Shown: positions 6,174 through 7,433 of the stretch, in pieces
Layout of the letters: every line of letters starts with the position of its first letter
Position numbering within the stretch: the stretch's first letter is position 1
IMG/VR virus record: IMGVR_UViG_3300047380_000086
Span: 1-27,185 of that record
Length of the DNA: 27,185 bases
Strand: one strand, 5' to 3'
From: a virus
Notes under the pieces: model-generated
Told to the model about the DNA's origin: nothing
Databases searched by the model: none
The model's input: the letters and a program-made list of their open reading frames with translations, nothing else
Translations under genes and position numbers: made by a program

Positions 6174-6593
6174 TCACGCCACCCGTTCTCTGAGCTTGCT
6201 GAAGTTAGCAGGCTTGGCAACTTTGTTAGGTGCGGGACGCTTGTTTGGAGTCCAGACTTCACCGCCTGTCAGTGCAGCGAAGACTTCACAGTCGGCGTTG
6301 TGACGGACTTGAAGCTCTTCAAGCTCGGGGAGGAGCGTGTTGATCCAGCGTTCTGTCCGCTCCATAGCGTATGTATTCTTCTCATCTACAGCGATGTCGT
6401 ACTCAGCAAGTGAATCAGCGATCTGTTTCTTCTTGAAGGTGAGGCTGTTGTGAGATGTGTAGCAAGCATCACGACCTAAGCCGATTAGGAATTTATCGTT
6501 GATGATTGGGCCGTCAGCAGACGGTTTGTCTGTAGTATGGTAGTTAATTACTTCGAGCTTGAGCTGTGCTAGTTTGGATACGTTCTTAGTCAT
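6174..6593 (-). CDS. Hypothetical phage protein (139 aa), first leftward gene
   Basis: I do not recognise it. It is hydrophilic with a basic, Pro/Lys-rich C terminus (TPNKRPAPNKVAKPANFSKL) and a central predicted helix (AMERTERWINTLLPELEELQ). The start at 6593 is supported by AGGAGAACTAGAAC. That leader, including the first codons, is mirrored on the plus strand at 6829-6857, so the 5' end of this gene is one arm of a large inverted repeat. As the most upstream leftward gene it is likely expressed first after infection. A nucleic-acid-binding role would suit the basic tail but is not shown. Confidence 0.75.
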   Translation of the reverse strand: MTKNVSKLAQLKLEVINYHTTDKPSADGPIINDKFLIGLGRDACYTSHNSLTFKKKQIADSLAEYDIAVDEKNTYAMERTERWINTLLPELEELQVRHNADCEVFAALTGGEVWTPNKRPAPNKVAKPANFSKLRERVA

Positions 6594-6596
6594 GTT

Positions 6597-6863
6597 CTAG
6601 TTCTCCTATTAGTCAAGAGGCCAACCCTCTTGATGCAGACCCAGAGACATGCCCACAAATCCCAGCTTGCTGGGGCTTGACGTTCGCAACTGCTTTCCCC
6701 AGCAGGCTCAGGTGGTGCTGGCACAACGCTAGCCACACACACAATAGCCAATGCTAAGAATGGAAAGTAGTTGCGAATGTTTTGTGGAGCTTGTCACGCA
6801 GGGCAAGACAAGAGGTTGGCTGATTGACAGGAGAACTAGGTTATGACGACGAACCCAAAGTAG
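6597..6863. other. Structured non-coding element with mirrored leaders
   Basis: No gene of convincing length. The ends are perfect 11-base inverted arms (CTAGTTCTCCT at 6597-6607 and AGGAGAACTAG at 6829-6839), extended by a gapped match around CCAACCCTCTTG and its complement near 6811-6820. Inside, ACGTTCGCAACTGCTTTCC (6680-6698) pairs with 6762-6780 at 17 of 19 positions, both mismatches being G-T wobbles if transcribed in the plus direction. A competing pair joins 6665-6675 to 6697-6707. At the right end the mirrored ribosome site is followed by ATG and a six-codon frame (6843-6863) that stops at TAG. It could be a structured RNA, a replication origin or a relic of an inverted duplication. 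Confidence 0.6.
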
Positions 6864-6887
6864 TGCAGCCTCAAGTGATGGGGTGAT

Positions 6888-6904
6888 TGTTATAGTATGG
6901 TTTA
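6888..6904 (+). promoter_or_regulatory. Extended -10 promoter candidate, rightward
   Basis: TG, one base, TATAGT matches an extended -10 element. The 14-mer TATAGTATGGTTTA (6891-6904) matches TATACTATGGTATA of the leftward control region (minus strand 5963-5950) at 12 of 14 positions, so both outward directions may share a promoter type. No clear -35 is visible. Confidence 0.4.
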
Positions 6905-6950
6905 GCCTGTCAATAGCCCGAAGAGGTAGAATGATACCTATTTACGTTAG

Positions 6951-6963
6951 TGACGCTACGTCA
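6951..6963. repeat. Palindromic 13-mer TGACGYWACGTCA, copy 2
   Basis: TGACGCTACGTCA, preceded by AG and followed by CA. It lies in the non-coding region about 90 bases ahead of the small terminase gene, five bases before a TTGACA sequence (6968-6973) that could serve as a -35. No good -10 follows that hexamer. Confidence 0.75.
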
Positions 6964-6997
6964 CATATTGACAAGCAAGTTGGAAATAGTGCCTGTT

Positions 6998-7020
6998 GGG
7001 GGGAGAGAGGGAGAGGGGGG
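6998..7020 (+). repeat. G-rich polypurine tract
   Basis: Twenty-three consecutive purines containing two runs of six G and one run of three. It could form a G-quadruplex or a polypurine/polypyrimidine structure. It lies just upstream of the small terminase gene, where packaging sites are often found. Confidence 0.7.
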
Positions 7021-7052: not shown

Positions 7053-7433
7053 ATGACTAAGGTGATGAATACAAGACAGCTGACTAAGAAACAGACAGCA
7101 TTAGTTGACACCATTGTAGCAAGAGGGTGTACGATAGCTAAGGCAGCAGAGGAAGCTGGATACAGTAAGGGTGAGTCTGGAAGAGTAACTGCTACCAAGA
7201 CTATGAAGCTACCACATGTGCAGCAGTACTTGATGCAGAGGATGAACGAGGAGTTCGGGCTTAGTGCTACCTTGGCAGCTGGAACGGTGAGACGGCTAGC
7301 CATGAATGCTAAGTCAGAGTACGTTCAGCTAGAAGCTAGCAAGGATTTACTAGACCGAGCAGGCTATAAGCCGATAGATCGTAGTCAGGTTCAGGTAGCT
7401 GGTGACATACGAGTCAGTATTGATCTTGGCTAG
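7053..7433 (+). CDS. terS: Terminase small subunit
   Basis: The small terminase subunit recognises the packaging site and hands the DNA to the large subunit. The N-terminal part (LTKKQTALVDTIVARGCTIA, then KAAEEAGYSKG) is the helix-turn-helix of the Terminase_2 kind. The phrase KLPHVQQYLMQRM and the C-terminal LEASKDLLDRAGYKP are also typical of phage small terminases of this size (126 residues). The ATG at 7053 has no strong ribosome site; an in-frame ATG at 7065 is the alternative. It is the first rightward gene after the control region. Unusually, about 2.3 kb and ten small genes separate it from the large subunit. Confidence 0.85.
   Translation: MTKVMNTRQLTKKQTALVDTIVARGCTIAKAAEEAGYSKGESGRVTATKTMKLPHVQQYLMQRMNEEFGLSATLAAGTVRRLAMNAKSEYVQLEASKDLLDRAGYKPIDRSQVQVAGDIRVSIDLG

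Follow-up and report, generated by a model that had tools for sequence, protein, structure and literature searches.

Introduction

In bacteria, long palindromes are commonly considered unstable. T-shaped terminal hairpins of the parvovirus type consist of a long stem with two small hairpins at its tip, the packaging RNA of phi29 contains a three-way junction and functions in packaging, and the promoters of the N4 virion RNA polymerase are tiny one-strand DNA hairpins with GNA-type triloops. The N4 promoter hairpins have been reviewed (PMC4496689). Frpo/ssi ssDNA promoters of conjugative plasmids are strand-specific hairpins upstream of genes including SSB (PMC11541004), and the sso of rolling-circle replicons, such as sso1 of ICEBs1, is a strand-specific multi-stem structure with its shape conserved above its sequence (PMC4595007).

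Here we describe a large branched hairpin between two divergent gene sets of a marine podovirus with a T7-like capsid. The window, the whole stretch of 27,185 nucleotides that was analysed, is an IMG/VR virus contig. The closest isolate is Pelagibacter phage Hodr (OQ414635; portal 63% and TerS 48% identical); this GenBank record is titled Hodr EXVC031P, yet carries locus tags EXVC032PBaldr. The two genes next to the hairpin are:

6174 to 6593, - strand: first leftward gene, 139 aa, with its start mirrored in the hairpin (reading frame; relatives)
7053 to 7433, + strand: terminase small subunit (TerS), first rightward gene of the packaging/structural set (PHROG 2538, E = 7.7e-16)

The rightward genes beside TerS encode the large terminase, portal and major capsid protein. 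The 139-aa leftward protein has no PHROG or Pfam match, and the leftward genes include DUF932, a RuvC-like resolvase, a YqaJ/RecE exonuclease, the annealing protein ERF and an SSB-like protein. Hodr also encodes the anti-restriction protein ArdC. In the circular record of Hodr the gene sets flanking the hairpin diverge there and converge at the far side of the circle.

Comparison with described systems

The phage hairpin resembles Frpo/ssi in its apparent strand specificity and in its position, upstream of the SSB gene among others, with ArdC added in Hodr. The + strand is the template of the leftward SSB and anti-defence genes, so that the folded strand, the choice of which we infer, would be the template of exactly the leftward genes, as in Frpo/ssi (PMC11541004). 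The phage stem is, however, far larger. An Frpo-like -35/-10 pair in the stem is not conserved, the -35 being fully paired in 3 of the 13 Hodr-like sequences examined, and an Frpo-type promoter within the stem was therefore rejected. As a further difference, ssDNA entry is to our knowledge not known for tailed phages.

With the sso the hairpin shares a multi-stem structure and a shape conserved above sequence; a strand bias, such as an sso would have, is seen in two of three clades. It differs in its much greater stem length and in mirroring a gene. Neither the 51 Hodr proteins (Pfam, and PHROG among the matches listed) nor the early genes selected from the window, G001 and G014 yielded a rolling-circle or HUH Rep. 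Hodr and G014 have theta-type initiator-like proteins. In Hodr this is an HTH_3 domain fused to a DnaT DNA-binding domain (L113, 15431-15958), a candidate replication initiator judging from its domains, and in the relative G014 a lambda O/DnaD-like replication initiation protein (L230, 6061-6723). No O-like or DnaT-like initiator was found in the window itself, and the window and Hodr proteins searched included none recognisable as a polymerase, helicase or primase. Given the two initiator-like proteins, such phages probably recruit the host replisome.

One-strand DNA hairpins with GNA-type triloops are common to the N4 promoters and, on our reading, the phages described here, but the N4 hairpins are tiny and no virion RNA polymerase was identified in these phages. 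The long stem tipped by two small hairpins recalls the parvovirus type; the phage hairpin lies internally in a circularly mapping genome, not terminally. As in phi29, a three-way junction is found near a packaging function, but the phage has TerS and no Rfam match.

A single branched hairpin lies between the divergent genes

The preliminary description reported a mirrored gene leader, nested arms and an excess of symmetry between the divergent genes. All three proved real, and the symmetry exceeds the extent noted: every arm found is contained in one hairpin, an imperfect palindrome with a three-way junction. Its long stem A leads to two hairpins, the short B and the longer C, joined by a CTTG linker; the parts are as follows:

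6575 to 6865, + strand: whole branched hairpin (fold z-scores, palindrome ranking in the window)
6582 to 6615, + strand: outer left arm, overlapping the leftward gene's SD and start codon (repeat search)
6613 to 6633, + strand: local hairpin within the left arm, TCAAGAGG-CCAAC-CCTCTTGA (sequence)
6652 to 6659, + strand: stem A, junction-side 5' strand, CCCACAAA; its partner is 6781-6787 plus the preceding base (fold)
6660 to 6675, + strand: short hairpin B, TCCCAG-CTTG-CTGGGG (covariation)
6676 to 6679, + strand: conserved linker CTTG, directly after hairpin B
6680 to 6698, + strand: 5' arm of hairpin C, conserved GTTCGCA (repeat search, covariation)
6762 to 6780, + strand: 3' arm of hairpin C, conserved TGCGAA (repeat search, covariation)
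6821 to 6854, + strand: outer right arm, mirrored SD and ATG (repeat search)
6843 to 6863, + strand: mirrored mini-ORF MTTNPK*, not conserved among relatives (sequence)

Folding of the + strand from 6575 to 6865 gave an MFE of -136.6 kcal/mol versus -85.9 +/- 5.7 for dinucleotide shuffles (z = -8.95; 0/200 shuffles), and the - strand of the same region also forms a strong hairpin (MFE -125.4, z = -7.5). The region is the most stable 300-nt segment of the 27-kb stretch and its top palindrome, with a score of 43 versus 24 for the next unrelated site; nothing else of this kind occurs in the window. No Rfam family matched in the window at or above the gathering score.

The outer arms are 34 nt long and 76% matched. 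In the inner arms of hairpin C, 17 of 19 positions match as first noted, and both mismatches are G.U pairs on the + strand. The leader is present in both copies, as AGGAGAACTAG-GTT-ATGAC at 6829-6847 on the + strand and AGGAGAACTAG-AAC-ATGAC at 6607-6589 on the - strand. The + copy reads ATG ACG ACG AAC CCA AAG TAG and thus stops after six codons, as had been observed. The suggestion that it encodes a leader peptide did not hold: among relatives the mirrored mini-ORF ranges from 2 to about 26 codons and specifies unrelated peptides. An equivalent of the small hairpin at 6613-6633 is visible by eye in g139-type relatives.

The hairpin is retained in diverged relatives

Relatives were gathered via the 139-aa protein plus the TerS of both phages (window and Hodr), and the regions upstream of TerS were thinned to 79 representatives of <88% identity. 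In 68 of these, including the isolate Hodr, a segment upstream of TerS folds with z < -5. We also folded all 39 distinct g139-to-TerS intergenic regions and found a long hairpin of the same kind throughout the folds listed. The sequences are widely diverged; the long stem is retained and usually capped by a three-way junction. One such palindrome was present per complete relative examined where it was detected. It is absent from the DNA examined of L175 and L183, whose TerS is 63-70% identical to that of Hodr, as well as from MEP301 and Vibrio phage 1.138, which share portal homology. Searching phage records with the hairpin region (nucleotide) or the 139-aa protein gave no match, and with TerS Hodr was the sole full-coverage match. 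Searches of open-access papers gave no description of such an element; as far as these searches and Rfam show, the structure is conserved and undescribed.

The palindrome frequently extends far into the leftward gene. It measures about 0.6 kb in Hodr and about 1.0-1.1 kb in L050, L075, L096, L144 and L145, where it mirrors essentially the entire gene. The mirrored arm is non-coding: a protein identity of 32-42% is still recognisable, and the arms with a match are interrupted by stops, for which reason we rejected a decayed paralogue under coding selection. The adjacent genes belong to several families, mostly without detectable mutual homology, so the mirrored arm tracks whichever gene is present. 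Of the earlier proposal of an inverted duplication with one decayed copy, the duplication thus stands, the right arms of relatives being inverted non-coding copies of the adjacent gene. Simple decay does not, since in two clades the mismatched positions can still pair on one of the strands.

The junction covaries

In the window-type clade the junction follows the pattern AA-[hairpin B]-GCTTGA.GTTCGCA ... TTGCGAA.TTTT. Compensatory changes maintain the pairing in hairpins B and C (the second pair of C, for instance, occurs as C-G/A-T/G-C), contrary to the possibility raised at the outset that relatives would lack conserved pairing. The covariation score of the junction was 0.245 versus 0.099 +/- 0.021 for shuffles (13 trimmed sequences; 0/500 shuffles), and all slid control versions scored lower. 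Automatic parsing called a three-way junction in 37/69 folds; elsewhere flanking sequence disturbed the parsing, and a number of folds are plain hairpins.

Mismatches in two clades, and hairpin tips, are biased towards the + strand

Arm mismatches were counted on the TerS-sense (+) strand with transitions scored symmetrically. The window-type clade shows 223 G.U versus 43 A.C, with more G.U in 23 sequences and fewer in none; the counted cells are not independent events, but the sign is identical in 23/23 informative sequences. A second clade, with TerS at most 65% identical to that of Hodr, gave 75 versus 11. The remaining Hodr-like set, mostly AT-rich, has no strand bias (141 versus 124). From flank composition we estimate an expected ratio of about 1.2-1.6. 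Polarised substitutions in three trios are strand-symmetric, with (A>G+C>T)/(T>C+G>A) at 0.99 in left and 0.93 in right genes. Strand-asymmetric mutation was therefore rejected as the cause, which points to selection for + strand pairing or to strand-specific mismatch repair. In the biased clades about 8% of pairs are G.U, and the bias persists far from the junction.

Hairpin tips show the same preference. GNA triloops on stems of at least 5 bp number 11 on the + strand and 0 on the - strand (24 versus 10 for stems of at least 4 bp). The heptamer GCGAAGC, the classic ultra-stable DNA mini-hairpin, occurs 15 times on + versus once on -, about 11-fold over background. The MFE difference between strands was dropped as evidence since it is confounded by skew, 63 of 76 coding control windows favouring the + strand too.

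These data bear on whether the hairpin is a functionless mutational product, an inverted duplication made by template switching and kept near-perfect by repeated quasi-palindrome correction. Right arms copied from whichever gene adjoins, in several families, would be expected of such a process, and the Hodr-like arms seem recent, with about 90% Watson-Crick pairs and roughly as many G.U as A.C mismatches. We consider this explanation quite improbable, because the hairpin sits at one place in 68/79 lineages, the junction combines invariant sequence with compensatory changes, mismatches are strand-biased without mutation bias, and long palindromes are usually unstable.

Candidate promoters flank the hairpin

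Two sequence elements were found between the hairpin and TerS:

6886 to 6913, - strand: the region's only sigma70-like promoter match, leftward, TTGACA-16-AACAAT (count 1 versus 1.4 in shuffles, no excess)
6968 to 7020, + strand: TTGACA, 24 bases, then G6-AGAGAGGGAGA-G6, a conserved TTGACA/G-tract element immediately before TerS

TTGACA lies 23-25 bases ahead of a G6 run just upstream of TerS in 38/43 representatives outside the Hodr-like set. The element, in which GGGGGGAGAGAGGGAGAGGGGGG comes 24 bases after TTGACA in the window, occurs once per checked complete genome having it. It may mark a TerS transcript start that forms a G-quadruplex or R-loop. An inverted repeat GTGACGCTACGTCAC at 6950-6964, flanked by the divergent TTGACA elements, looks like an operator; GTGACGTNACGTCAC-like versions are found in many window-type relatives. 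Most Hodr-like representatives carry a good sigma70 promoter, TTGACA-16/18-TATACT, right of the hairpin, with the TSS 43-78 nt before TerS.

With candidate TerS promoters to its right, the hairpin should fall outside the TerS transcript. Several relatives have candidate leftward promoters left of the hairpin, a weak hint that in these it is transcribed on neither strand. Because the -10 of the window-type TerS promoter is poor, rightward transcription may also start further left. Such a transcript, starting inside the leftward gene, could fold into a giant structured + strand RNA, antisense to the early gene start, that controls early/late expression or mRNA stability. Two clades tolerate about 8% G.U while A.C is depleted in them; this, the covariation at the junction and the best fold on the + strand would all suit an RNA. 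Yet + strand sigma70-like sites left of the hairpin are at background (0.21 versus 1.01 per kb on the right), the TerS promoters lie right of it, the Hodr-like palindrome is kept without + bias, Rfam gave no match, and the tips carry GNA triloops rather than GNRA or UUCG. Synonymous-site conservation across the 139-aa gene showed no peak indicating an embedded + promoter. On balance we hold the RNA to be somewhat unlikely, although the G.U level and the unbiased Hodr-like set leave it real weight.

A transcript from the leftward site at 6886-6913 would carry the hairpin as - strand. The hairpin could then be the 5' leader of the leftward mRNA, hiding its ribosome-binding site as an attenuator or RNase III-processed leader, with or without a leader peptide. 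The SD and ATG do lie within the stem, and the single sigma70-like site of the window is leftward and right of the hairpin. As mismatches are biased towards pairing of the other strand, the mini-ORF varies among relatives and some of these have candidate leftward promoters left of the hairpin, such a leader is hardly to be expected.

Packaging and genome ends

Among the sequences searched the hairpin is always just upstream of TerS, an association partly due to search design. This placement equally fits that of a pac site, terS adjacency being what was seen. As a symmetric DNA element the hairpin might be a pac site. Alternatively, an SbcCD-like nuclease or a Holliday-junction resolvase might cut it as a cruciform; in either case the break would start headful packaging or recombination-dependent replication. 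The window has a RuvC-like resolvase, ERF and the YqaJ/RecE exonuclease, the Hodr-like clade lacks strand bias, and complete contigs open at differing places with no fixed ends, as headful packaging predicts. Because two clades do show strand bias and no pile-up of contig ends at the hairpin is demonstrated, we regard a packaging or cutting site as unlikely.

Circular-map contigs have various opening points and variable overlaps, so the hairpin is not a genome end. A hairpin telomere or protelomerase site was rejected, since many contigs run through the palindrome and complete contigs open elsewhere. The contigs L002, L004 and L005 have almost the same start, differing by a few bases and lying about 75 nt past the TerS stop codon; two of them were checked and have approximate end overlaps of 239-258 nt. 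The shared start may reflect a true terminus or may stem from assembly.

Discussion

We favour, at a probability of roughly 40%, a strand-selective DNA stem-loop in the main divergent control region that acts in replication initiation. This reading builds on the conserved structure, its covariation, the mismatch bias in two of three clades, the position upstream of candidate TerS promoters and the non-coding mirror arm; from these we infer its DNA nature, the + strand as active form and the role in initiation. The element would be a conserved cis-acting stem-loop, formed as an imperfect inverted duplication of the leftward gene start with a three-way junction cap, between the leftward recombination/SSB genes and rightward TerS, and would work as DNA rather than as a transcript. 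The + strand would become single-stranded through supercoil extrusion, as lagging-strand template or as displaced strand, and snap into the branched hairpin. The folded form would then mark a replication start site for the host machinery, either primase/primosome or RNA polymerase.

An initiation or priming site would suit a strand-selective hairpin placed in a divergent control region. Of the functions suggested in the preliminary description, the origin of replication and the structured RNA are both retained as readings, an origin-type DNA element being preferred. Candidate TerS promoters to the right, and the weaker hint of no transcription on either strand, favour a DNA element. Several findings argue against the initiation reading: G.U at about 8% of pairs resembles RNA more than DNA, strand bias is absent from the Hodr-like clade, the bias extends far from the junction where added stem length should matter little, the - strand folds well too, and L175 and L183 lack the hairpin despite a similar TerS. 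Nor did the analysis turn up a nick site, a Rep protein or iterons, or an O-like or DnaT-like initiator in the window itself, and this also counts against it.

A bolder version, which we regard as doubtful, is a giant strand-selective DNA hairpin, continually re-formed by copying the adjacent gene, that would serve tailed dsDNA phages as an ssDNA start site for replication and/or for early SSB/anti-restriction transcription. In broader terms, the hairpin looks like an undescribed control element, with phage DNA copying or packaging as its probable role. Palindromes of 0.3 to 1.1 kb are kept at one fixed place across very divergent genomes and, with Hodr, the hairpin is directly testable in an isolated phage. 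Such hairpins would represent a class of cis-acting structures not described before, found in podoviruses that are abundant in the sea.
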